A DNA stretch of 64,000 nt. It comes from Chloroflexota bacterium. Its GTDB lineage: Bacteria; Chloroflexota; Anaerolineae; DTLA01. Positions 2,749-21,950 of the stretch are shown here, piece by piece; within the stretch, counting starts at the first letter, position 1; each line of letters starts with the position of its first letter. The notes beneath the pieces were generated by a model, which worked only from the letters and a program-made list of their open reading frames with translations, searched no databases and was not told the origin of the DNA. The stretch is taken from positions 22,532 to 86,531 of the forward strand of contig JADBJK010000031.1 of the NCBI GenBank assembly GCA_014874485.1, given 5' to 3'. The translations under genes were made by a program, and so were the position numbers.

Positions 2749-2922
2749 GATGCCCCCGTCGACTCCGTGGCACCCATGCTACACTCCGGGCCGCTGTACG
2801 TCAAACAGGGGTAAAGTTGTCATTGCGAGGGCGCAACGCGCCCGAAGCAATCTCCCGCGCCCATTTTGTAACCGCTGTGTAACTGCGATATGCTACACTA
2901 AAATCGCGGTGCGGAGGGAAAG

Positions 2923-3846
2923 ATGGCTGGACGAAGGCTGTCGGCAATCGGGTACAAGGCTGCCCCGTTGTTCGCGTTTCCGTTCGCCCTGCTCGTGGCT
3001 CCAATCCTCGTCGCCTGCTCGGCCTCGCCCACTCCCACAGCCCTGCCCACAACCAACGGCGCGGCCAAGGTCAACGGCGTCGCCCTGCACTACGAAATCA
3101 CCGGCCAGGGCGAGCCGCTTATCCTCATACAGGGCCTCGGCACGGCCACCTGGCTCTGGTGGAAGCAGGTGCCCGAACTATCCCGCCACTTCCGCGTCAT
3201 CGCCTACGACCTGCGCGGCTCCGGCTGGAGCGACAAACCCGACGAGCCGTACTCCATCCCGATGTTCGCCGACGACCTGGCGGGCCTCATGGACGCGCTG
3301 AAAATCAAGCAGGCCCACATTCTCGGAATCTCGCTGGGGGGCTATGTCGCGCAGGAATTCGCCATTCGCTACCCCGACAGGGTCAAGCGCCTCGTCCTCT
3401 GCTCCACCAGCACCAACGGCCCCAACGCCGTGCCGCCGAGTCCCGACATCATCGTCGCCCTAATGACGCCCGTGGCGGGCAAGGACGACCTGCGCGACCG
3501 CATTGCCCTGTCCCTCAGCCCCGGATACGCCACGGCGCACCCGTCGGATGTGGAGCGGATGATGGCGTGGCGGCTGGACAACCCACAACCTGCCTACGCC
3601 TACAATCGTCAGCTGATGAGCGCCGTGGGCTGGACATCCGAGGGGCGGCTTGGCGAGATCACCATGCCCACGCTGGTGCTGGCCGGGTCCGAGGATCGCG
3701 TGGTGCCGCCGCAAAACGCCGACGTCCTCGCGGCGGGCATCCCCCACGCCGAGAAGGTCATCCTGCAGGGCGCCGGCCATCTCATCAACGTGGAGCAGCC
3801 GGACAAACTCAACAAGGAGGTCATTCGGTTTCTGACATGGAAATGA
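2923..3846 (+). CDS. Alpha/beta hydrolase, predicted lipoprotein
   Basis: Signal/lipobox-like LLVAPILVAC; nucleophile elbow GISLGGYVAQ; C-terminal GAGHLINVEQP. Confidence 0.85.
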   Translation: MAGRRLSAIGYKAAPLFAFPFALLVAPILVACSASPTPTALPTTNGAAKVNGVALHYEITGQGEPLILIQGLGTATWLWWKQVPELSRHFRVIAYDLRGSGWSDKPDEPYSIPMFADDLAGLMDALKIKQAHILGISLGGYVAQEFAIRYPDRVKRLVLCSTSTNGPNAVPPSPDIIVALMTPVAGKDDLRDRIALSLSPGYATAHPSDVERMMAWRLDNPQPAYAYNRQLMSAVGWTSEGRLGEITMPTLVLAGSEDRVVPPQNADVLAAGIPHAEKVILQGAGHLINVEQPDKLNKEVIRFLTWK

Positions 3847-4319
3847 ACGAAATCAGCGCCGCGTCTTTTGAAGCCTTCCTGCAACGAGCGCGCGCCAGCA
3901 CCTGGGCCAGCGGCGCGGAGCCAACGCGCGTAACCCCGCAAGGCGAAACGCTATACGAATACAAAGAAGAGGCACGCCTGTATCGGGACACCTACATGGG
4001 AACAGCCGACTCGTTCTTCGGGCAGGAGACGGTGTACGAAGTGGAGATGCCCCTGTGGAACATCATCTACGCCGGGCAGGTGCATCCCCACGCCGTTGGC
4101 GACCCAGGCTCCGATGCCATCTACGCCTTCCTGCGGCGCGCCCTCATCGCTACCGGCGAGAACAGCCGCCTGGGCCGCCAAGCGCACTACGAAGAGGGCG
4201 ACTGGGTGTACACCGACCAGGGCGAGACCCACGGCAACGAGTTCTGGGGCAACGAGTGGATCTCGTACCGCGGAGTGGAGGTGTACCGCCTGAAGTACGG
4301 CGGCGGCTGGATGGGATAG
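3837..4319 (+). CDS. DUF5680-like protein
   Basis: Overlaps upstream stop; ATG 3837; ...YRDTYMGTADSFFGQETVYE...PLWNIIYAG. Confidence 0.55.
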   Translation: MEMNEISAASFEAFLQRARASTWASGAEPTRVTPQGETLYEYKEEARLYRDTYMGTADSFFGQETVYEVEMPLWNIIYAGQVHPHAVGDPGSDAIYAFLRRALIATGENSRLGRQAHYEEGDWVYTDQGETHGNEFWGNEWISYRGVEVYRLKYGGGWMG

Positions 4320-4348
4320 GCCCAACAGTCCAAGAAGGAGATGAAATC

Positions 4349-5125
4349 ATGGAGCGATTGAAAGGGAAGGTAGCCATCATCACCGGCTCGGCCATGGGCA
4401 TCGGCAAGGCCACGGCCCTGAAGTTCGCCCGCGAGGGCGCGAAGGTCGTCGCCTGCGATGTGGTCGCCGAGGCAGGCCAGGCCGTCGTGGACGAGATTGC
4501 CGCCATGGGCGGCGAGGCGTTCTTCGTCGCGGTGGACGTAACGTCCGCGGAATCCGTCCAGGCGCTGGTGGACACCGTGATGACCCGCTGGGGCCGCGTG
4601 GACATCCTGGTCAACAACGCGGGCATCACGCGCGACGCCCTGCTCGTCAAGGTCAAGGACGGCGAAGTGGTGGATCAGATGAGCGAGGCCGCCTTTGATG
4701 CCGTCGTCAACGTCAACCTGAAGGGCGTGTTCCTGTGCACGCGCGCTGTGGCCCCCATCATGATCCGCCAGGGCAGCGGCGTCATCCTCAACGCCGCCTC
4801 GGTCGTCGGCCTCTACGGCAACTTCGGCCAGACGAACTACGTGGCCACCAAGGCCGGCGTCATCGGCATGACGCGGGTGTGGGCGCGGGAACTGGGGCGC
4901 AAGGGCATCCGCGTGAACACCGTCGCCCCCGGCTTCATCCTGACCGACATGGTGAAGAAGATGCCCGAAAAGGTGCTCGCGTCCATGCAGGAGAAGGTGC
5001 CCCTGGGTCGGCTCGGCGAACCGGAGGACGTAGCCAACGCCTACGCCTGGCTCGCCAGCGATGAGGCATCTTATGTCAATGGCGCCGTCATCTCGGTGGA
5101 TGGCGGCATTGTCATCGGAACCTAA
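4349..5125 (+). CDS. Short-chain dehydrogenase/reductase (FabG-like)
   Basis: TGSAMGIGKATA, NNAGI, YxxxK-type YVATKAGV; SD AAGGAG. Confidence 0.9.
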   Translation: MERLKGKVAIITGSAMGIGKATALKFAREGAKVVACDVVAEAGQAVVDEIAAMGGEAFFVAVDVTSAESVQALVDTVMTRWGRVDILVNNAGITRDALLVKVKDGEVVDQMSEAAFDAVVNVNLKGVFLCTRAVAPIMIRQGSGVILNAASVVGLYGNFGQTNYVATKAGVIGMTRVWARELGRKGIRVNTVAPGFILTDMVKKMPEKVLASMQEKVPLGRLGEPEDVANAYAWLASDEASYVNGAVISVDGGIVIGT

Positions 5126-5165
5126 CCACGCGCTCCGTGCGCAGAACGCCAGGAGGAAAGCATAT

Positions 5166-6173
5166 ATGGCAAGATACGCAACCATCATCGGAACCGGCAG
5201 GTACCTGCCGCCCATTGAGCGAACCAACGAGCAGTTCAAGCAGGACATGATGGCCGTCAACCCTGCCCTGGGCGAGGTCGTGGACAAGTTTGAGGCGTCC
5301 ACCGGCATCAAGACGCGCTGGTATGCCGCCGACGACTGGGCCACGTCCGACCTGGCCGCCGAGGCCGCCAAGGACGCCCTGGCCGACGCGGGCATCAAGG
5401 CCGAAGACCTGGACTGGATTCTGTTGGGCACCGACTCGCCCGACTACATCACCCCCGCCACGTCGGTGGTGGTGCAGCACAAGATCGGCGCGGTCAACGC
5501 GGGCACGGTGGACGTGGGGTGCGCGTGCGCGTCGTTCCCCACAGGTTTGGCGCTGGGCGCGGGCCTCATCGCCACAAACCCCTACATCAAGTACATCCTG
5601 GTCATCGGCGCGTACATGATGCACAAACTGGCCGACTGGAAGACCGACGTGGTGTCGTTCTTCTATGGCGACGGCGCCGGCGCGGCGGTGCTCGCCGTCA
5701 GCGACAAGCCAGGCTTCGTCTGCTCCACCGCCTTCGCCGACGGATCCTACCACAAGCACTGGGGCATCTATTCGGGCGGGACCTACGAACCCGCCACGGT
5801 GGAATCCGTGCAGGCGGGGCGCACCAAAGTCCGCCTCATCACCCCCTTCCCGCCGGACGTGAACAACGTGGGCTGGCCCAAGCGCATGCGCGAACTCGCG
5901 GCCCACGGCAACTTTGACCTGCAGGACGTGGACATGGCCATCTTCACCCAGGTGCGCCTGAACTCCATCCAACTGGTCATGCAGGACCTGGGGCTGCCCA
6001 TTGAGCGGGCGCACTGGATCATGGACAAGTGGGGCTACACAGGCTCGGCGTGCCTGCCCATGTGCTTTGACGACGCGCGGAAACTCGGCAAGGTCAAGAG
6101 CGGCGATTTGGTAACCTTCGTCGGTTCCGGCGTCGGGTACAATCAGGCGGGCGCCGCCTTCATCATGCCGTAA
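5166..6173 (+). CDS. 3-oxoacyl-ACP synthase III-like (KAS III superfamily), atypical catalytic residues
   Basis: MARYATIIGTGRYLPP; active-site Cys region GCACASFPTGLAL; FabH-like C-terminal half. Confidence 0.85.
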   Translation: MARYATIIGTGRYLPPIERTNEQFKQDMMAVNPALGEVVDKFEASTGIKTRWYAADDWATSDLAAEAAKDALADAGIKAEDLDWILLGTDSPDYITPATSVVVQHKIGAVNAGTVDVGCACASFPTGLALGAGLIATNPYIKYILVIGAYMMHKLADWKTDVVSFFYGDGAGAAVLAVSDKPGFVCSTAFADGSYHKHWGIYSGGTYEPATVESVQAGRTKVRLITPFPPDVNNVGWPKRMRELAAHGNFDLQDVDMAIFTQVRLNSIQLVMQDLGLPIERAHWIMDKWGYTGSACLPMCFDDARKLGKVKSGDLVTFVGSGVGYNQAGAAFIMP

Positions 6174-6186
6174 CCAAGGTCTGCCT

Positions 6187-7548
6187 ATGACATCGGCCAA
6201 CGACTTGTACAAACGGAAACGCATCTCCATCCCCGACGCGGTGGGCCTGGTCCAGTCGCACCAGACCATCGGCGTGGCGATGGCCGCATCGGAGCCGCCC
6301 GGCCTGCTCACCGAACTAGGGCGGCAGGGCGAGCGCCTGGAAGACGTGCGCCTTTGGGTCTGCCTGCCCATGCGCGAGTACGAGGCGGTGCTCAGCCCGC
6401 GCATGGCCGGCCACATCTTCGTGGAGAACTGGTTCTACGGCGCGCCCGACCGCAAGGCCCATCCCCAGGGCCGCATGTCGTACATCCCCAACAACCTGCA
6501 CCAGGCGGCCCGCGACAAACTGGCGCGGGATGGCAAGGTCAACATCTTCTGGGGCACGGCCACCCCGCCCGACCGCTACGGCAACATGTCGCTGTCCCTC
6601 GGCCTCGTGATTGAGAAGGCGCTCCTGGAAGCCGCCGACCTGGTCGTGTTGGAGATCAACGAGAACCTGCCCTGGACACTGGGCGACACCCAGGTGCACA
6701 TCTCGCAGGTGGACTACGTCGTGGAGAACACCTGCCCCCTGGTGGAACTCCCCCCCGCCCCATCCACGCCAGAAGAGGAGGCCATCGGCGGGTACATCGC
6801 CGACCTCATTGAGGACGGAGCCACAATCCAACTGGGCATCGGCGGGATTCCCAACGCCATCACGCGGTACCTCATGAATCGGCGGGATTTGGGTGTCCAC
6901 ACCGAGATGTTCACCGACGGCATGGTGGACCTGTTTGAGGCGGGGGTCATCACGGGCAAGCGCAAGACCCTGTGGAAGGGCAAGATGGTCGGGGCCTTCG
7001 CGCTGGGCACGCAGAAACTGTATAACTTCATCCACAACAACGTGGGCGTGGAGTTCCAGCAGGGCAAGGTAACCAACGACCCCTACATCATCGGGCAGAA
7101 CTACAAGATGGTGAGCGTCAACACCGCCCTGCAGGTGGACATCATCGGGCAGGTCTGTTCGCAATCGCTGGGCGTGCGCCACTTCAGCGGCACGGGTGGG
7201 CAACTGGACACCCATCGCGGCGCCCAGCGTTCGCCCGGCGGGCGCGGCATCATCGCGCTCCGCTCCACAGCCCGCAACGGCACCGTGAGCACCATCGTGC
7301 CCATTCTGGAGCCTGGCGCGGAAGTAACCGTCCCGTCCCAGGACGTGGACACCATCGTTACCGAGTTTGGCGTTGCCGAGTTGAGGGGGCGGTGCGTGCG
7401 CGACCGCGCCGAGGCGCTGATTCGCATCGCCCATCCCGACTTCCGCGACTACCTGCGCGAGGAAGTGGAGCGGCTAGGCATCGTGCCGAGGCTGGTCGTG
7501 CCGGGCGTTCAGGTGGGCGAGGGCCAACAAGGGCAGCAGGCCAAGTGA
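6187..7548 (+). CDS. Acetyl-CoA hydrolase/transferase family (4-hydroxybutyrate CoA-transferase-like)
   Basis: LQLGIGGIPNAITRYL, FTDGMVDLFEAGVITGKRK, GTGGQLDTHRGAQRSPGGRGIIAL. Confidence 0.88.
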   Translation: MTSANDLYKRKRISIPDAVGLVQSHQTIGVAMAASEPPGLLTELGRQGERLEDVRLWVCLPMREYEAVLSPRMAGHIFVENWFYGAPDRKAHPQGRMSYIPNNLHQAARDKLARDGKVNIFWGTATPPDRYGNMSLSLGLVIEKALLEAADLVVLEINENLPWTLGDTQVHISQVDYVVENTCPLVELPPAPSTPEEEAIGGYIADLIEDGATIQLGIGGIPNAITRYLMNRRDLGVHTEMFTDGMVDLFEAGVITGKRKTLWKGKMVGAFALGTQKLYNFIHNNVGVEFQQGKVTNDPYIIGQNYKMVSVNTALQVDIIGQVCSQSLGVRHFSGTGGQLDTHRGAQRSPGGRGIIALRSTARNGTVSTIVPILEPGAEVTVPSQDVDTIVTEFGVAELRGRCVRDRAEALIRIAHPDFRDYLREEVERLGIVPRLVVPGVQVGEGQQGQQAK

Positions 7549-7587
7549 GGCCGATGTTGAGGAGACGAGTTCTCTGGAGGTTAGGCG

Positions 7588-7911
7588 ATGAGCACACAAA
7601 CGATTGTAGGACTCTGGGAAATCCCCGCGGGCCAGGAGTACGCCGGGCTGCGATTCCGCTACAACCCCGACGGAACCTTTGAGGCCGACTATCCGCCGAT
7701 GGGCATCAAGTCCAGCGGGACGTGGACCCTCACCGGCAACGAACTGGACATGGACCAGACGCAGCATACCCTGGGCTGGGTGGGCCTCTTCCGCGCGCTG
7801 GTGGACATCTCGGAGGACGGCCAGACCATGAAGGTGGCAGTCGCTGCTGGGCCAAACCTGCCCAGGCCGACGGACTTCACCAAGTACCGCCTGTACAAAC
7901 GGCTGGAGTGA
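7588..7911 (+). CDS. Small conserved-type hypothetical (lipocalin-like beta-rich)
   Basis: SD (GGAGG) and colinearity; MSTQTIVGLWEIPAGQEYAGLRFRYNPDGTFEADYPP. Confidence 0.6.
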   Translation: MSTQTIVGLWEIPAGQEYAGLRFRYNPDGTFEADYPPMGIKSSGTWTLTGNELDMDQTQHTLGWVGLFRALVDISEDGQTMKVAVAAGPNLPRPTDFTKYRLYKRLE

Positions 7912-7945
7912 GCCGCGTCGAAATCCGGTCCAGACAGGAGTGGAC

Positions 7946-8743
7946 ATGAGCAGCATACAGGTCAACGGCGTAACGCTGCACTATGAGTGGCACGGGCCGG
8001 AGGACGCGCCGGTGGTCGTGCTGTCCAACGGCGTCCTCGCCAACACGGCCTCGTGGTTCAATCAGACGCCCGTGCTGAGCAAGCGGTTCCGGCTCCTGCT
8101 GTACGACTGTCGGGGGCAGGGCCGCTCGGAGCACCCCGCCGGCCCGTACAGCATGGAGATGCACGCGGACGACCTGGCGGCCCTTCTCCGCGCCCTGGGC
8201 GTGGAGAAGGCCCACATCGGCGGCATCTCCTACGGCGGCGAAATCAGCCTGCTGTTCGCCACCAAGTACCCGGAGATGACCCGCACCGTCGTGGCCATGA
8301 GCGCGGTGAGCGAGGTGCACCCGTTCCTCAAGGCCCAGATTGACCTGTGGGCGGCGGCAGCGAAGACGCGCGACCCGGCGCTGTTCTTCCAGGCAACGGT
8401 TACGCACAACTTCAGCGCGGGCTTCATCGCCGCCAACCAGGCCTTCCTGCAGGCGTCGGTGCCCCGCTTCGCGGCGCTGGACATTGACGCCGTGCTGGCG
8501 CTGCTGGATGCGTTCCAGCGCCTGGACATCACGGAGCAACTCTCGGCCATCACCGCACCCACGCTGCTCCTGTACGGCGCGGAGGACGCCCTGAAGCCAC
8601 CCGCCGTGTACGGGCGCATCATCGCCGAGCGGATTCCGCACGCCGAGTTTCTCACCGTCCCCGGTGCGGGGCACGTGGTCATCTGGGAGAAACCCGACGC
8701 CGTCAATTCTGCGCTCATGGGGTTCCTGCTCAAGCACTCGTAG
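7946..8743 (+). CDS. Alpha/beta hydrolase (3-oxoadipate enol-lactonase-like)
   Basis: VVLSNGVLANTASWFNQTPVLSKRFRLLLYDCRGQGRSEHP; GISYGGEISLL; GAGHVVIWEKP. Confidence 0.85.
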   Translation: MSSIQVNGVTLHYEWHGPEDAPVVVLSNGVLANTASWFNQTPVLSKRFRLLLYDCRGQGRSEHPAGPYSMEMHADDLAALLRALGVEKAHIGGISYGGEISLLFATKYPEMTRTVVAMSAVSEVHPFLKAQIDLWAAAAKTRDPALFFQATVTHNFSAGFIAANQAFLQASVPRFAALDIDAVLALLDAFQRLDITEQLSAITAPTLLLYGAEDALKPPAVYGRIIAERIPHAEFLTVPGAGHVVIWEKPDAVNSALMGFLLKHS

Positions 8744-8775
8744 CGTAGCGCGGGCACTGCCCGCAAGGAGGCAGC

Positions 8776-9207
8776 ATGCCAGACGAAATCCACATTCGGG
8801 ACGACTTTCAAATCGGCGAGACAGCGTCGTTCTCCAAGACCATCACGGAGTCGGACATCTACGCCTATGCGGGAATCAGCGGCGACTTCAACCCCGTCCA
8901 CGTGAACGCCGAGTTCGCCAAGAAGACCCGCTTCAAGGAGCGCATCGCCCACGGGATGCTGACCGCAGGGCTGGTTTCCGCCGTGCTGGGGATGAAACTG
9001 CCCGGCCCGGGCGCCATCTACCTCAGCCAGCAGATGGAGTTCCTGAAGCCCGTGCGAATCGGCGACACCATCACGGCCACGGCCGAGGTGCAGGCCTACA
9101 ACGCCGAGAAGCGCATCCTGACGTTGCGAACGACGTGCACCAACCAGCGCGGCGAGGCAGTCCTGGAGGGGCGCGCCGTCGTGATGATGGACCGCATTCA
9201 GGCGTGA
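8776..9207 (+). CDS. MaoC-family (R)-specific enoyl-CoA hydratase
   Basis: ESDIYAYAGISGDFNPVHVNAEFAKKTRFKERIAHGML hydratase motif. Confidence 0.9.
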   Translation: MPDEIHIRDDFQIGETASFSKTITESDIYAYAGISGDFNPVHVNAEFAKKTRFKERIAHGMLTAGLVSAVLGMKLPGPGAIYLSQQMEFLKPVRIGDTITATAEVQAYNAEKRILTLRTTCTNQRGEAVLEGRAVVMMDRIQA

Positions 9208-9368
9208 TGCTGCCCGTGCTGTTCGGCTTCTGGACACGTTGTCCATGTCAACGCGAGCGCCGAAAGGGAAAGGGGGTGAGGCCATCCTGGCAAAGTGAGA
9301 CCGTGTGAAACCCGGCCCATCAAGTGCGTTTACCCAAAGCCATGTAGTTCTTGAGGAGGAAAAGAAAG

Positions 9369-10733
9369 ATGAAACGCCTGTTTGGTGTTCTGACTGTCCT
9401 GGCCCTGCTGGGCATGGTGCTGTCTGGCTGCGTGCAGAAGGCCACGCCTACGGCCCCGCCGCCGTATCAGGCCAAGCCCACGCCGACCCCGGAGCCCACC
9501 GTCCCGCCCACGCCGACCGAAGCCCCCAAACTCGGCCCCGTGCTGAAGATCGGGCAGATTTCCATGCTGTCCGGCGTCATGGCCCTCTACGGCCAGCAGC
9601 AGGTGCGCGGGTTCGCGCTTGGCCTGGAATACGCATCGGGCGGGAAGAAGGACGACCAGGGCCGCTGGATCATCGCCAACCGTCCGGTTGAGGTCATCAC
9701 CCGCGACGACGAAGGCAACCCCGAGAAAGGCGTGCAGATTGCCCGCGAGTTGATTGAGAAGGAAGGCGTGGAGATTCTGCAGGGCCCCGTGAGCAGCGCG
9801 GTCGCAGCGGCGCTCACCACCGTGGCGCTGGAGAACAAGATCATCCTCATGGTGGACCCTGCCGCGTCGGCCTTCATCACGGGCGAGTACTTCAACCCCT
9901 ACGTCTTCCGCACCAGCCGCACCAGTTTTGACGATACCCTCGTCATCGCCAAGTACCTGGTGGAGAACGTGGGCAAGACGTTCGCCCACATCGGCGTGGA
10001 CAACGCCTTCGGTCGTGGCAGCGGGGTGGCCCTGGCCTACTCGGTCGCCAAGTTCGGTGGCAAGGTCATCGCCGACATCTACGCCCCGCTGAACACCACC
10101 GACTTCACCCCGTACATCCAGCAGGCGATGGATTCCGGCGCCGAGTGCCTGTTCCTCACCTGGTCGGGCACGGGCTACGTAACCCTGTTCCAGCAACTGG
10201 GCGACCTGGGCGCGCTGGAGAAGATGCGCGTGGCCACCGGCTTCGGCGACAATGCCTCGTTCGCCGCAGTGTTCGGGACCGCTGTGGGCCAGATCGGTCT
10301 GAACGTCTACCACTACACTGTGCCCAAGAACCCGGTCAATGACTGGCTCGTCCAGCGGCACCTGGAACTCTACAATGAGCCGCCAGACCTGTTCACCGCG
10401 GGCGGCATGGCGTCGGCCATCGCCCTGGCGAAGGCACTGGAGAAGACCGGCGGCGACACCAGCGGCGACAAGATGATCGCGGCGCTGGAAGGGCTGATGT
10501 TTGAAGGCCCCAAGGGCACCTACTACATCCGCCCCGAGGACCATGTCTGCCTGCAACCGATGAACATCCTGAAACTGGTGGACATCAACCCGCCGAAGGA
10601 CGAGAAGGGCCGCCCGACGTACAAGTTCTTTGAGACGGTGTACGTCTCCAAGTACGACGAACTCGGCGTGCCCTGCACGCTCACCGGCCAGTACGCCGAC
10701 CGCTGCGGCAACCTGCCCAGGATCGGCCAGTAG
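9369..10733 (+). CDS. Branched-chain amino acid-type ABC transporter substrate-binding lipoprotein (LivJ-like)
   Basis: Lipobox MVLSGC; Pro/Thr linker; LKIGQISMLSGVMALYGQQQVRGFALGLEYASGG. Confidence 0.88.
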   Translation: MKRLFGVLTVLALLGMVLSGCVQKATPTAPPPYQAKPTPTPEPTVPPTPTEAPKLGPVLKIGQISMLSGVMALYGQQQVRGFALGLEYASGGKKDDQGRWIIANRPVEVITRDDEGNPEKGVQIARELIEKEGVEILQGPVSSAVAAALTTVALENKIILMVDPAASAFITGEYFNPYVFRTSRTSFDDTLVIAKYLVENVGKTFAHIGVDNAFGRGSGVALAYSVAKFGGKVIADIYAPLNTTDFTPYIQQAMDSGAECLFLTWSGTGYVTLFQQLGDLGALEKMRVATGFGDNASFAAVFGTAVGQIGLNVYHYTVPKNPVNDWLVQRHLELYNEPPDLFTAGGMASAIALAKALEKTGGDTSGDKMIAALEGLMFEGPKGTYYIRPEDHVCLQPMNILKLVDINPPKDEKGRPTYKFFETVYVSKYDELGVPCTLTGQYADRCGNLPRIGQ

Positions 10734-10818
10734 TCGGACAACCAACAAGCAGGGGGGCGTTACACAGCCCCCCTGCTTGGACCGCACGGCAGCATGGCAG
10801 AATCACCAGGAGAGGACG

Positions 10819-11619
10819 ATGGCACCCGAAGCCGAAGAGCGCGAGATTATCCTGGAAGCGCGTAACCTGCGCAAGGAGTTCGGTGGCCTGGTGGCGGTGG
10901 ATGACGTGAGCATCCAGATACGCGCACGAACGCTCCACTCCATCATCGGCCCCAACGGCGCGGGCAAGACGACGCTGTTCAACCTGCTCAGCGGCACCAT
11001 GCCCCCCACCCGCGGGTCCGTGTTCTTCAAGGGCCGCGACATCACCCACTTGCCGCCGCACCGCATCGCACACCTGGGCCTGGGCCGCACCTTCCAGATC
11101 ACCAACATCTTCCCCAACCTCACCGTGCTGGAAAACGTGCGGCTGGGAGCGCAGGCCATGGGCCGCCACAACCTGCGCCTGCTCACCCACTCGGACAAGT
11201 ATACGCAGTACCTAGACCAGGCCGAACAAGTCATCGCCCAGGTGGGCCTTCGCGGGCGCGAGCACATGCTGGCCGCGAACCTGCCCCACGGCGACAAGCG
11301 CAAACTGGAACTCGGCATCATGCTGGCCGGGAACTTCGAGGTCCTCCTGCTGGACGAGCCGACCGCAGGGATGTCGTCCGAACAGGTACCGGCACTGTTG
11401 GAAATCATCCATAACATTCTCACATCGGGGAATCGCACCATCGTCCTGGTGGAGCATCGCATGGACATGGTGATGAGCATTTCGGACTTCATCACCGTGA
11501 TGCACCAGGGACGGGTGCTGGCCGAGGGAACGCCGCGCGAAATCGCGTCCAACGAGTTGGTCCAGAGCGCCTACCTCGGCGCATTGTACGGCGATTTGAC
11601 TGCCCAGGCGGAGAAGTAG
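10819..11619 (+). CDS. livG: Liv-type ABC transporter ATP-binding protein (LivG-like)
   Basis: Walker A GPNGAGKTT; LGRTFQITNIFPNLTVLENV; Walker B LLLDEPTAGM. Confidence 0.9.
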   Translation: MAPEAEEREIILEARNLRKEFGGLVAVDDVSIQIRARTLHSIIGPNGAGKTTLFNLLSGTMPPTRGSVFFKGRDITHLPPHRIAHLGLGRTFQITNIFPNLTVLENVRLGAQAMGRHNLRLLTHSDKYTQYLDQAEQVIAQVGLRGREHMLAANLPHGDKRKLELGIMLAGNFEVLLLDEPTAGMSSEQVPALLEIIHNILTSGNRTIVLVEHRMDMVMSISDFITVMHQGRVLAEGTPREIASNELVQSAYLGALYGDLTAQAEK

Positions 11620-17595: not shown

Positions 17596-17683
17596 TTGTT
17601 CTGTTGGGCGACGTAGCCAAGTGGCAAGGCAGGGGTCTGCAAAACCCCGACCGCGGGTTCAAGTCCCGCCGTCGCCTCCACAA
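17596..17683. repeat. Left 88-bp direct repeat (candidate attL)
   Basis: Identical base-for-base to 21863..21950; flanks differ immediately outside. Confidence 0.95.
17607..17680 (+). tRNA. tRNA-Cys (GCA), first copy, CCA encoded
   Basis: GGCGACG/CGTCGCC; GGGGT-CTGCAAA-ACCCC; TCCA 3' end. Confidence 0.95.
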
Positions 17684-17750
17684 CACTACAGGTAGCCCCC
17701 AAAGCGGCCTTTGCCCCCTACAGGTAGGGCCGCTTTCGCTTTGCCCTTCG

Positions 17751-17785
17751 CCTGATGGTGCTGACGGCATCATTACACCATCAGG
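17751..17785. promoter_or_regulatory. 10-bp perfect inverted repeat upstream of integrase
   Basis: CCTGATGGTG (17751-17760) / CACCATCAGG (17776-17785), 15-bp spacer, 9 bp before integrase ATG. Confidence 0.65.
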
Positions 17786-17794
17786 AGGTGCACC

Positions 17795-18907
17795 ATGACC
17801 CGCCGAAACCCAGGCGAAGGAAGCGTCTTTCAGCGCCGCGATGGGCGCTGGCAGGCCTCGCTCCAACTGAACGGCATCCGCAAAGTTGTTTACGGCAAGA
17901 CGGCCCAGGAAGCCCGCCAGAAGTTGGCCGCCTTGCGAAAGCAGGTGGCCACGCTGAACGGCCTACCCGACGCGGGACGGCGAACGGTAAATGACCTGCT
18001 GGACGCCTGGCTTGAGGTTTGCGCCCCGTCCTGGAGACCGTCCACGCTGGAGAGCCACCGCGAAGTGGCCGACCTGCACATTCGCCCCACGCTGGGCAAG
18101 GTGCGCCTGGAGCGGCTTTCGCCCGTCCAGGTGCAAGGCCTCACCAAGACCCTACAGAAAGCCGGGAAGCCGCGAACGGCGCTGAAGGCCTACGCCGTCC
18201 TGCACCGCGCCTGCCAGTTGGCCGTCCTGTGGGGCTGGCTTCCGCAAAACCCGTGCGGTAGGATACCGCGCCCCCAGTACCGCCCCGAAGGTAGGCAGGT
18301 TTGGACAACCGCCCAACTCCAAGCGTTCCTGCAAGAGACGCGGGGCCACTGGCTTGGCCCGCTGTGGGCGTTCCTTGCGGCTTCGGGCTGTCGCATCGGC
18401 GAAGCGCTTGGGCTGTCCTGGGACGCCGTCAACTGGGAGACCGCCACCGTTGCCATCGCCCACAACCTGCAGAGAGTGGGGGGCCGCTGGGAGTTGGAGC
18501 GGCCCAAGACCGCATCGGGCGAACGCACCATTGCCCTGCCTGACTGGGGCATCGCCGCGCTGAAGCGGCAACGGGTACAGCAAGCCGAATGGCGTTTGCA
18601 AGCCGGGGCATCCTGGGCAAACGAGCGGGGCCTCGTGTTCACCAGGGCGAACGGTGCGCCGCTCCACTGCACAACGGTTGCCAGGGCCATGCGGGAAGTG
18701 TGCAAGCGCCTGGAGTTGCCGCCGCTATCGCCTCACGGGCTGCGACATCTCCACGCAAGCCTGCTACTGGCAGAGGGCGTGGGAGTCCCGCAAGTGGCCC
18801 AACGGCTTGGCCACGCCGACCCGCGCATCACGCTGCAGGTGTACGGCCACGCCCTGGGCGGTGATGACGCGGCTACAAAGGCGCTAGGGCGGGCGATTCG
18901 GGGGTAG
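17795..18907 (+). CDS. int: Tyrosine recombinase / phage-type integrase
   Basis: Catalytic motifs GCRIGEALGL, HGLRHLHASLLL, HADPRITLQVYGH; N-terminal SAM-like core-binding domain. Confidence 0.95.
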   Translation: MTRRNPGEGSVFQRRDGRWQASLQLNGIRKVVYGKTAQEARQKLAALRKQVATLNGLPDAGRRTVNDLLDAWLEVCAPSWRPSTLESHREVADLHIRPTLGKVRLERLSPVQVQGLTKTLQKAGKPRTALKAYAVLHRACQLAVLWGWLPQNPCGRIPRPQYRPEGRQVWTTAQLQAFLQETRGHWLGPLWAFLAASGCRIGEALGLSWDAVNWETATVAIAHNLQRVGGRWELERPKTASGERTIALPDWGIAALKRQRVQQAEWRLQAGASWANERGLVFTRANGAPLHCTTVARAMREVCKRLELPPLSPHGLRHLHASLLLAEGVGVPQVAQRLGHADPRITLQVYGHALGGDDAATKALGRAIRG

Positions 18908-19006
18908 GCCGTAAAATGACCTATGGGGGGCGTCCTCATGCGCCCCCCGCCCCTGCTGTGAACGTTAGTCAACGCATAGCCGGTAAACGCGGGGCGCTGC
19001 CACGCA

Positions 19007-19035
19007 TTGCCAAGCGCCGCGCCCTGTGGTACAAT
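19007..19035 (+). promoter_or_regulatory. Promoter of putative RNA copy A
   Basis: TTGCCA (19007-19012) - 17 bp - TACAAT (19030-19035), extended -10 TG. Confidence 0.6.
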
Positions 19036-19041
19036 TGCCGC

Positions 19042-19159
19042 AAAGAAAGCGCCCTGCGACGCGCGAACGTCCAGGGCGGCGGCTAGGGCGGGCCTATCGC
19101 CCCAGCGAGTGGATTGTAGCACAATGGCCCGTCCTGGCAAACGCTGGGGCGGGCTTTTT
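19042..19159 (+). ncRNA. Putative structured ncRNA, copy A (ends in intrinsic terminator)
   Basis: HP1 CGCCCTG-c-GACG-CGCGAA-CGTC-CAGGGCG (19050-19078); HP2 GCT-a-GGGCG...CGCCC-c-AGC (19082-19106); TAGCACAA (19117-19124); terminator stem 19127-19154 + TTTTT; same architecture as 21583..21706. Confidence 0.6.
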
Positions 19160-19174
19160 GCTGCGAGGCGGAGT

Positions 19175-19825
19175 ATGGACACGTGGAAAGAAACCCATAT
19201 CGTGGAAGGCAAACTTGAAGACCTTGCCCGGTATCTCTTGCGGAAGACGCGCCCCTACTGGCACGTTGACCTGGGCGAGGGCAAAAGCCTGCAGGTTCAG
19301 TGTGCGCGCCCGCGGCTGAACGCGCTGCCCGACCCCGATGATGCCATTTTGGAGATGGAAGCCTTCTTGCTGAAGCCAGACCCCGACAATCCCAACGCCG
19401 CCGTCGCATGGCCGGTAGGGAGCGCCGTGGAGTTTCGCCTGCTGCGAATCACAGACAACCGCACCGAGGTTACCGTGCAATGCCACTACCCGCAATTGAC
19501 CGACCGCGTGCAAGCCTTAATCGCTGCGGTTCTGGAGACGTGGCCCCATCCCGTGCAGAGCGCGGCGCAAAGAGTTGACGCGCCCCGGCCCGAGACCTCG
19601 GAGCCTGCGGTGCATAAGGGCGAAGAGGCAGACTGCCTCGCCGCTATCCGAGAAGGGCCTGATAGAGACATAATCAGATTATGGCGCGAAGGCTATACCG
19701 CCTCTGAAATCGCAGAGCAGAGCGGCTTCGCCAGCAAGACGGTGAGCAACCGCATTTGCGAGTTGCGAAAGACGTTTGGGGATGGCGTGGTGCCACGCCG
19801 CAGGCCTCACAGATGGAAAAACTGA
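19175..19825 (+). CDS. Element-encoded hypothetical with C-terminal helix-turn-helix
   Basis: C-terminal IIRLWREGYTASEIAEQSGFASKTVSNRICELRKTFG is a typical HTH; SD GAGGCGG. Confidence 0.7.
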   Translation: MDTWKETHIVEGKLEDLARYLLRKTRPYWHVDLGEGKSLQVQCARPRLNALPDPDDAILEMEAFLLKPDPDNPNAAVAWPVGSAVEFRLLRITDNRTEVTVQCHYPQLTDRVQALIAAVLETWPHPVQSAAQRVDAPRPETSEPAVHKGEEADCLAAIREGPDRDIIRLWREGYTASEIAEQSGFASKTVSNRICELRKTFGDGVVPRRRPHRWKN

Positions 19826-19910
19826 TGGAATCCGGGTATTGATTCCCTGGAATAGGCAGGGCTAGACTGGCGGGTGAAAGAACCCGCCAGTTTCTTTTGG
19901 GAGGACAGAC

Positions 19911-20072
19911 ATGCAAAGCCCAATCAGGTTTCGGCTTCTGTTGTCCGAGGAAGAGTACCACGCCCTGGTGCGCCTGTCGGAGCGGGAACTGCGACCGCTG
20001 ATGCACCAGGTGCGAGCCATACTGCGAGCGGAACTCCAGCGGGAGGGGCTTCTGGAGCCGACGCAGGAGTAA
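19911..20072 (+). CDS. 53-aa ribbon-helix-helix-like small protein (absent from supplied ORF track)
   Basis: MQSPIRFRLLLSEEEYHALVRLSERELRPLMHQVRAILRAELQREGLLEPTQE; upstream purine-rich SD GGGAGGA. Confidence 0.6.
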   Translation: MQSPIRFRLLLSEEEYHALVRLSERELRPLMHQVRAILRAELQREGLLEPTQE

Positions 20073-20125
20073 GAACTTGCCCCCGACGCTGGCACGCCGG
20101 GGGCGGGACAAAAGGGGGTTGTGTT

Positions 20126-20491
20126 ATGCATGGTACCAACGAGCGGGAGCGCTGTCAAATCTACGCCCAGGGGCGGGTTGTGGGCCACGTCCAGGGCGAC
20201 GTTTTCGTGAAGCGTGTCCGTGGGAGCGTCCACATGCTACGGAAACCCAGGGCCTGGGCGCTGGACTGCCAAAGCCTTGACGATGCCGAGGCCCTCGGAG
20301 CGCGGCAAGTGGAAGTCCACGACACGGAGTCGGGGCTGACCTATCGGGCCTCGGTTGCCCTGATTCGCGCGCGGGGCTTTCAGTTTGACCGCGGCTTCGG
20401 GCGGCAAATCGCCTTGCCGCTTGACCAGTGGAACATGGAGCGGCCAGGTGCGCCGAAGGCTGTGCAGTTGGGCCTTGCCCTGGGAGTGTGA
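20126..20491 (+). CDS. Element-encoded hypothetical protein
   Basis: MHGTNERERCQIYAQGRVVGHVQGDVFVKRVRGSVHMLRKPRAWALDCQ...; SD AGGGGG; overlaps into next gene region. Confidence 0.6.
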   Translation: MHGTNERERCQIYAQGRVVGHVQGDVFVKRVRGSVHMLRKPRAWALDCQSLDDAEALGARQVEVHDTESGLTYRASVALIRARGFQFDRGFGRQIALPLDQWNMERPGAPKAVQLGLALGV

Positions 20492-20495
20492 GGCG

Positions 20496-21173
20496 GTGGG
20501 CGGCGGCAACGGCGCAGGGTGGGTGCGAGTCCCCAAATCGGCGGCCTTTGACAAGCGGCTGTCGTGTACCGAGCGCCTTGTCCTAGTGGCGCTGCTGTCC
20601 TTTGACTTCTCCGACGCGCGGGGCAAGTCCAAAGGCTACTGCTGGCCGTCGGTTGGCACGCTGGCCGAACTTGTCGGACGTTCGCGTCGCACCATTCAGG
20701 CGGCGCTTGCCAGGCTTGAGGCCGTCGGCTACATCCGCGTTGAGCACAACGTCGGAGGCCCAGGTGGGGGAAGTAGCAATCGGTACCACCTTGTGCTGGA
20801 GAGCGACGTGCAGAAAACTGCACCTCGCTATGCGAGCGACGCGCAATTTTCTGCGAGCGACGTGCAGAAAATTGCACCCCCCGACACGCAGAAAATTGCA
20901 CCCGAAGAAGAAGAAGATAGAAGAAGCACAACCGAAGAAGAAGAAACTTACGACCCTCGCATTCGTGATTTTATGGACATCTTGAAAGCGACGGTTGCTC
21001 CGTCCACGTTTGGAGCCTACCTTGCGGATATGAGGGTGTCGGCCTCGGACGGGCTTTTGGTGGTAGCCGAAGCGCATGGCATGGCCGCCACGCGGTTGCG
21101 GCCAAAGGTAGAAAGCGCGGCGAAGCAGGCTGGTTTCGCCGCTGTGGTGTTCGCTGAACAGGCGGCGGGGTAG
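20496..21173 (+). CDS. Replication-initiator-like protein: N-terminal winged HTH, repeat linker, DnaA domain-I-like C-terminus (GTG start inferred)
   Basis: STLAELVGRSRRTIQAALARLEAVGYIRVE wHTH; SDVQKTAP/SDVQKIAP/DTQKIAP linker; C-term ILKATVAPSTFGAYLADMRVSASDGLLVVAEAHGMAATRLRPKVESA. Confidence 0.65.
   Translation: MGGGNGAGWVRVPKSAAFDKRLSCTERLVLVALLSFDFSDARGKSKGYCWPSVGTLAELVGRSRRTIQAALARLEAVGYIRVEHNVGGPGGGSSNRYHLVLESDVQKTAPRYASDAQFSASDVQKIAPPDTQKIAPEEEEDRRSTTEEEETYDPRIRDFMDILKATVAPSTFGAYLADMRVSASDGLLVVAEAHGMAATRLRPKVESAAKQAGFAAVVFAEQAAG
20801..20902. repeat. Four iteron-like repeats (core GCAGAAAAyTGC; second copy inverted) inside the initiator-like gene
   Basis: Cores at 20810-20821, 20843-20854 (reverse), 20864-20875, 20888-20899; followed by purine-rich tract from 20904. 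Confidence 0.75.
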
Positions 21174-21510
21174 AGTTGCGGCCTGTGCGCGCGGGACGGG
21201 AAGGGGACATCCCAGGACGCGGGAAGCCGCCATCCCGGCACCCCGCGCGGGGTAGGGGGGCATCATGCGAGACGAGATGCTGATTTGTAGCCCACAGGGG
21301 GGTTGTGTGTGGCAGTCTTGCGGGCGGGCAAGCCTTCAGTTGGGCCAAAAGCCCAGGCGGGAGACGGCGAAGGGCCGCCCATCTAAACGGCTGAAAAATG
21401 GCCCCTGTGCAACTTCCGACTAGGCGCATTATGTAAATACGTCAAGCCTTGCCGCGTCCTCATGCGCCCGAATGCGGGCGAGTAAGGCCATTGCCCCTAA
21501 ATGCCCCAGA

Positions 21511-21540
21511 GTGGCCAAAAATGGCCAAAAGCGGCCAAGA
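21511..21540. repeat. Three 10-bp phased repeats (g/a)(t/c)GGCCAAAA
   Basis: GTGGCCAAAA ATGGCCAAAA GCGGCCAAGA contiguous. Confidence 0.8.
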
Positions 21541-21582
21541 ACGACCTAACACTTTCGGGCCGACCTGTGCTATACTGTAGGC

Positions 21583-21706
21583 AAGCGAAAGCCCCCGCAA
21601 GGCCGCAACCTTCGGGGGCGTGGCCCGGATGGGGTAGCATCCGAGCGGGGATAGGATAGCACAACGCCCTGCCTGGTGCAAACGACCGGGCGGGGCTTCT
21701 GTTTTT
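21583..21706 (+). ncRNA. Putative structured ncRNA, copy B (ends in intrinsic terminator)
   Basis: -10 TATACT 21571-21576 with TG extension; HP1 GCCCCCG-c-AAGG-CCGCAA-CCTT-CGGGGGC (21591-21619); HP2 GC-c-CGGATG-gggtag-CATCCG-a-GC (21623-21646); TAGCACAA (21657-21664); 12-bp terminator stem with GCAAACG loop + T tract. Confidence 0.6.
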
Positions 21707-21862
21707 GACAGCATCAGTACACCATCATCAGAGCGAAGGGGTATAGGCGCATGGGGGCCTGCAGGGGCGTTTACGGGCATTTAGAGGCGCTGCTGGGCGT
21801 TGACGGGCGTGAAGTAGCCCAGGGCCGCAAGGAAGCGCATCTTGTCCCGTTCCCTCTTTCGC

Positions 21863-21950
21863 TTGTTCTGTTGGGCGACGTAGCCAAGTGGCAAGGCAGG
21901 GGTCTGCAAAACCCCGACCGCGGGTTCAAGTCCCGCCGTCGCCTCCACAA
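21863..21950. repeat. Right 88-bp direct repeat (candidate attR)
   Basis: Identical to 17596..17683, offset 4267 bp. Confidence 0.95.
21874..21947 (+). tRNA. tRNA-Cys (GCA), second full copy
   Basis: Identical to 17607..17680. Confidence 0.93.

Follow-up and report, generated by a model that had tools for sequence, protein, structure and literature searches.

The window, a stretch of 64,000 nucleotides from a Chloroflexota bacterium of the class Anaerolineae (contig JADBJK010000031.1), harbours at positions 17596-21950 a tRNA-targeted integrative element, which contains a tyrosine integrase gene, is bounded on both sides by tRNA-Cys repeats and has an empty counterpart in two congeners. As a whole, it is probably best explained as a small plasmid-like integrative element with attenuating antisense RNA cassettes, and it provides a compact model, its 4.3 kb accommodating attachment, replication and the control of both. 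More interesting is the cassette family, in which a promoter, a leader and a terminator would enclose a predicted antisense RNA. We put forward tentatively, with chances somewhat short of even, that this RNA family is a common switch which mini-elements integrated in tRNA genes share with operons for anti-phage defence across much of the phylum, and that in the elements two diverged copies gate separately replication and, in the circle only, the integrase. The element family is large and apparently undescribed; about a quarter of the sampled class genomes carry the cassette and about a tenth its marker protein P0004, and no name or description of the family was found in the open-access literature.

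Insertion into tRNA-Cys and the tRNA repeats of the family

The element and its attachment sites comprise the following features:

17596-21950, plus strand: integrative element including both att repeats (exact repeats; empty site in two congeners)
17596-17683, plus strand: attL, 88-bp repeat with tRNA-Cys at 17607-17680 (ARAGORN, repeat, congener comparison)
21863-21950, plus strand: attR, 88-bp repeat with tRNA-Cys at 21874-21947 (ARAGORN, repeat, congener comparison)
17762-17783, plus strand: 22-bp direct repeat just 5' of the int start codon, candidate integrase arm-binding site
21706-21727, plus strand: second 22-bp repeat, adjoining the copy B terminator, candidate integrase arm-binding site

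Both 88-bp repeats, which a preliminary description of this DNA had reported together with their spacing of about 4.27 kb, agree without a single mismatch, which rules out chance; they lie 4267 bp apart, and each contains a complete tRNA-Cys(gca) according to ARAGORN. Beyond the two copies, the genome holds one further match of 77% identity elsewhere and no third copy. The same description had set an empty-site check beforehand, and two congeners answer it: in G002, a single tRNA-Cys is found where the left flank (92.5% identity) is joined to the right flank (91.0%), and in G001 the corresponding flanks (81.6% and 83.2%) likewise meet at a single tRNA-Cys, in both cases with no element sequence in between. 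The insertion is therefore real. In the congeners, the tRNA-Cys is preceded by the same Phe-Gly tRNA pair and followed directly by the same peroxiredoxin-like open reading frame (ORF, named by eye), and neither genome gave a match to P0004 or the initiator, nor to the integrase at E up to 1e-50. The spacer 5' of tRNA-Cys reads TTGTTCTGTCG and TTGTTCCCCCG in the congeners and TTGTTCTGTTG in both copies of the window. Since these 11 bp (17596-17606 and 21863-21873) are identical here and variable between species of the genus, the att segment is lineage-specific, and attP fits its host lineage unusually well. The two 22-bp repeats are 91% identical and may serve the integrase as arm-binding sites; similar 21-bp pairs are present in three relatives (L034, L095 and L098). 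Just inside attL, a GC-rich hairpin (AAAGCGGCC..GGGCCGCTTT, window 17690-17750) may stop tRNA transcription ahead of int.

Relatives were collected by searches with the integrase and P0004, as stretches of up to 20 kb from mostly draft genomes, and frequencies were determined in samples of 298 genomes of the class and 201 genomes of the phylum. Including the window element, 18 elements of 4.3 to 10.7 kb are bounded by tRNA repeats, and the anticodon loop (tRNA positions 33-39) lies inside every repeat (18/18). The extent of the repeats differs: a 3' part of the tRNA is repeated in L034, L093, L097, L098, L100, L129 and L173, a 5' part in L096, L119 and L121, and the whole tRNA in the window element, L095, L115, L124, L180 and L183, while the repeat of L174 corresponds to tRNA positions 9-50. 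L111 has two complete, diverged copies of tRNA-Gly whose identity is confined to positions 26-48; its attP may therefore have carried a full tRNA of its own. One crossover in the anticodon loop would explain all of these styles if attP brings either a single half of the tRNA or the entire gene. That the second tRNA received its 5' half by gene conversion was considered and is unlikely, because conversion needs homology on both sides, and in L111 the two copies agree over positions 26-48 alone. Whole-tRNA repeats are thus a recurring style of the family and not peculiar to the window element; the earlier view of this duplication as exceptional was too strong, since 3'-part, 5'-part and whole-tRNA repeats coexist.

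A family of putative sense/antisense RNA cassettes

Two putative RNAs had already been proposed for the interior of the element. Both are genuine members of a family; what had been missed is that they are copies of one and the same sense/antisense cassette, here called A and B, which align with each other and whose profile detects further copies in relatives:

19007-19160, plus strand: cassette copy A (E 5.5e-28), with promoter at 19007-19035, P1 and P2 region, and P3 terminator-like hairpin at 19126-19155
19036-19106, minus strand: antisense RNA predicted for copy A, roughly 70 nt, with -10 box at 19113-19118 and P1' hairpin and T-run at its end
21567-21708, plus strand: cassette copy B (E 9.4e-26), with P3 terminator-like hairpin at 21666-21696, directed outward toward attR
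21578-21646, minus strand: predicted antisense RNA of copy B

Copy A is located between int and the replication operon, into which it reads, and ends 15-20 nt 5' of the start codon of the helix-turn-helix (HTH) gene. Copy B occupies the opposite end of the element and is directed outward over att, hence into int in the circle. A covariance model built on 17 copies, the E-values of which are rough owing to a short calibration, detected 30 copies at E<1e-6 in the studied loci, including 13 copies outside the training set (E 3e-18 to 6e-8). At E<=1e-4, the cassette is present in 79 of the 298 class genomes and absent from the two congeners; 22 of the 201 genomes of the phylum sample carry it, 16 of which lie outside the class. 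Copies A and B group by position on a tree with few well-supported branches (5 changes, against 10.1 in shuffles). A comparison of the cassettes with Rfam gave no match, the output consisting of tRNAs and weak unrelated hits.

The distribution of G-U pairs separates the two strands. In 30 copies, P1 and P2 together show 1 G-U pair on the plus strand versus 19 on the minus strand, and P3 shows the reverse (20 versus 1), with binomial p of about 4e-5 and 2e-5, respectively, for related copies that are not independent. The bias recurs in 19 further copies for P3 (19:1, plus to minus) and P2 (1:9). The minus-strand consensus consists of an extended -10 box (TGTGCTATACT), the hairpins P2' and P1' and a T-run; the -10 box lies 6-7 nt off P2 in 28 of 30 copies, and double compensatory changes occur in all 15 predicted antisense pairs. 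A good plus-strand promoter precedes P1 in most copies. Each cassette thus seems to encode a short minus-strand antisense RNA within a plus-strand leader, which ends with P3 in most copies. An initial assignment of P1 and P2 to the plus-strand RNA was given up in view of these G-U counts. A single-stranded-DNA promoter (Frpo/sso-like) was also considered; the opposite G-U biases of P2 and P3 fit two RNAs better.

Cassettes also occur outside recognised elements. Eight genes that directly follow such cassettes were scanned with PADLOC, and four match defence proteins: BrxP (3.1e-89; cassette L184 8685-8834), an SNF2 helicase with a PLD domain (HKD+Snf2 helicase, 2.5e-48; L185 8500-8653), a TIR-domain protein (PDC-S66, 4.1e-62; L181 9361-9506) and a type II methyltransferase of the D12 kind (7.7e-57; L175 8694-8842), each encoded directly 3' of its cassette. 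This count suggests that cassette-linked genes may be enriched for defence. With BREX, helicase, TIR and methyltransferase genes behind a cassette that has no Rfam match, the idea that mobile elements and phage defence use a common RNA switch becomes directly testable. By eye, the N-terminal part of the 905-aa TIR/FGE-sulfatase protein of L181 (9513-12227) resembles that of P0002, the first protein of the replication operon in the window; both follow a cassette, and a shared domain is possible. In L175 (4484-12738), three to four cassettes stand in a row together with direct repeats of 100 bp and 59 bp; neither an integrase nor a tRNA was found in this array.

Gene content, proposed mechanism and alternative explanations

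The following genes and features lie between the att sites:

17795-18907, plus strand: tyrosine integrase P0001, 370 aa (Pfam Phage_integrase 1.4e-20; phrog_1 1.9e-69)
19175-19825, plus strand: HTH protein P0002, 216 aa, first in the replication operon (sub-threshold HTH matches only)
19911-20072, plus strand: ribbon-helix-helix (RHH)-like protein P0003, 53 aa (RHH fold by eye; no Pfam match)
20126-20491, plus strand: P0004, 121 aa, family marker, directly 5' of the replication gene
20496-21173, plus strand: replication initiator-like P0005, HTH_36, 225 aa (Pfam 1.3e-12; phrog_270 4e-18; O-like phrog_391 7.8e-17)
20801-20962, plus strand: candidate origin within the initiator gene, with three direct iteron-like copies, a fourth in inverted orientation and, after them, a purine-rich stretch

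All five proteins named in the preliminary description, namely the integrase, the HTH and RHH-like proteins, the orphan ORF and the initiator, are present. Its statement that relaxase, capsid and packaging genes are lacking holds as well, as no element protein matches a relaxase, conjugation, capsid or packaging family in Pfam, PHROG and further library scans. Without a relaxase or conjugation family in these scans, the element does not qualify as an integrative and conjugative element (ICE), an integrative and mobilisable element (IME) or an actinomycete ICE (AICE), and its gene set supports the proposed plasmid- or satellite-like nature rather than a prophage or ICE.

P0004 was found in 29 of the 298 class genomes, and a replication-like gene follows it directly in 24 of 25 loci, the exception being L119. 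When 20 of these genes were tested, 19 matched replication-type Pfam families and that of L112 a sub-threshold HTH_36; those of L096, L116, L126 and L130 were judged replication-like by eye. They are of unrelated kinds, i.e., HTH_36, AAA_25 helicase, CHC2 primase or D5 helicase, Prim-Pol, Phage_CRI and NrS-1-type polymerase. Homologues of P0003 adjoin P0004 in L117, L125 and L129. P0004 itself has no match in Pfam, PHROG, NCBIfam, PADLOC or the PDB, and a PDB search with its profile and the initiator gave nothing significant. No plasmid match was found, and among phages there was a single weak one (Moorella phage, 29% over 60%), which no annotated replication gene adjoins. A single-sequence AlphaFold model of P0004 (pLDDT 48) was not used.

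The iterons and the purine-rich stretch inside the initiator gene have the layout of an origin located within its initiator gene, and 20801-20962 may serve as the origin; the HTH_36 initiator gene of the relative L098 contains a four-copy array of its own. A DnaA-N-like C-terminal domain of P0005 was suspected by eye only.

Relatives carry additional genes. L095 encodes a distal, conserved small nuclease-like protein (3079-3429) with a match to RusA-like Holliday junction resolvases (4.5e-7), and relatives of it are present in L096, L097, L098 and L111. In L111, an extra cassette (2912-3058) lies just left of the left tRNA-Gly and mirrors copy B left of the right tRNA-Gly; probably, two elements are inserted in tandem at a single tRNA-Gly(ccc) site, and the right one (3177-11317) carries genes for a methyltransferase and a SacI-like nuclease. 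Small HTH proteins with similarity to the terminase small subunit (TerS) are encoded between the rep gene and copy B in L095, L115, L121 and, weakly matching, L124.

The insertion, its empty site, the genes, the family and a covarying cassette with promoter and terminator features on both of its strands are evident from the sequence. In the proposed mechanism, the tyrosine integrase would recombine a circle into tRNA-Cys, with the anticodon loop as the most likely place of the crossover; attP would carry a complete tRNA gene, so that an intact tRNA is kept at both junctions. The excised circle would replicate from the iterons within the initiator gene. Copy A would be the leader of the HTH-RHH-P0004-rep operon, and the pairing of its antisense RNA with this leader would free the P3 arm, whereupon the terminator forms and replication is limited, as in the pT181/pIP501 type of control. 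Copy B may act likewise on int, in the circle only and via the att junction, which is the weakest step of the model.

A different lifestyle for the same anatomy would be that of a minimal phage satellite, resembling phage-inducible chromosomal islands (PICI) or phage-inducible chromosomal minimalist islands (PICMI), which travels in the capsids of an unknown helper; we consider this possible but the less probable of the two lifestyles. TerS-like proteins of L095, L115 and L121 (phrog_2538, 1.1e-9 to 1.9e-12) weigh against a purely plasmid-like family and point to phage satellites for part of it, and the restriction-modification cargo of L111 also fits satellites. PICMI has six genes including int, a regulator and a primase, lacks capsid-remodelling genes and illustrates that capsid genes are not required for such small elements to spread (PMC10803314). 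The window element, however, has no TerS-like gene in the library scans, viral contigs queried with four element proteins and the P0004 consensus gave no match, and no helper phage is known.

Another explanation concerns the cassettes: P3 could simply end an upstream transcript, and the minus-strand RNA could be a free small RNA with other targets. Copy B is compatible with this, as its alternative pairing with its own leader is weak (z -0.5) and no gene lies directly behind it when the element is integrated; even in the circle, it is about 365 nt 5' of int, with the tRNA and a hairpin intervening. Several other observations also count against attenuation by a sense/antisense pair: some copies have only a weak plus promoter or lack one, four relatives (L121, L128-L130) have no clear P3, and the G-U bias of P1 was not repeated in the 19 further copies (2:1). 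A mere terminator with a free RNA is nevertheless the less likely reading. Start codons follow P3 of copy A within a few tens of bases, which leaves no space for another promoter; the Shine-Dalgarno sequence lies within the P3 3' arm in L095, L102 and L124; the promoter 5' of P1 is good in most copies; and in 26 of 29 copies the predicted pairing between the P3 5' arm and the leader upstream of it exceeds that of shuffled arms (z -3.8 for copy A of the window). Antisense-controlled attenuation thus fits copy A, where we infer it from these features, whereas for copy B its action on int would be an extrapolation.

That the element was left behind by the decay of a larger prophage or ICE, as its small size and the lack of transfer genes might suggest, is very improbable: none of its genes is interrupted, the att sites are both perfect, and equally compact relatives of 5-11 kb have the same order int - cassette A - HTH - RHH - P0004 - rep - cassette B. 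An ancestral tandem pair of tRNA-Cys genes separated by core chromosome can be dismissed, and so can a misassembly of this draft genome of 122 contigs, as both congeners have one tRNA-Cys with joined flanks and no counterpart of the integrase, P0004 or initiator, and both flanks are syntenic on a single 86.5-kb contig.

Comparison with known systems

In phage lambda, the iterons lie inside the gene of the O-type initiator and are followed by a purine-rich stretch. P0005 shares this arrangement and the winged-HTH initiator, and on its initiator-family similarity and in-gene iterons it may be regarded as a lambda O-like initiator with putative iteron binding. It differs in that the similarity is restricted to about residues 9-154, the iterons are unrelated and no P-like helicase loader was seen. 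With PICMI and PICI, the element has in common its small size, the combination of integrase, regulator and replication gene, the site-specific insertion and the absence of capsid genes, and some family members also share a TerS-like gene; it differs by its att site and by the lack of a packaging gene and a known helper, and the searched text on PICMI and PICI does not report antisense cassettes (PMC10803314).

The tDNA genomic islands collected by Islander likewise have a tyrosine integrase, target a tRNA gene, cross over in its anticodon loop and are flanked on either side by tRNA sequence; there, a tRNA and a fragment are expected, whereas the window element has two complete copies, which are filtered out (PMC4383910). 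Islander lists 3760 islands with 3' fragments and 159 with 5' fragments (PMC4383910). Since full-length tRNA hits are discarded, whole-tRNA cases are under-recorded, and finders of this kind will miss elements such as the one described here.

The closest parallels to the cassettes are the plasmids pT181 and pIP501, in which an antisense RNA attenuates the rep mRNA (PMC5703833). For the cassettes, corresponding features are predicted: a short antisense RNA with complementarity to the leader that precedes the replication operon and is not translated, a terminator 5' of the gene, and a competing pairing, which is weak for copy B. In contrast to those plasmids, the cassettes reside on integrative elements, have a second, diverged copy facing int, are reused before defence genes and have no Rfam match. 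In pMV158, the antisense RNAII overlaps the gap between copG and repB and blocks translation (PMC4485353). The window element resembles it in having a small RHH-type gene and a predicted antisense RNA around the replication gene, but this antisense RNA would cover the leader ahead of the first gene; by analogy, P0003 might provide a CopG-like second tier of control, as in pMV158 (PMC4485353).

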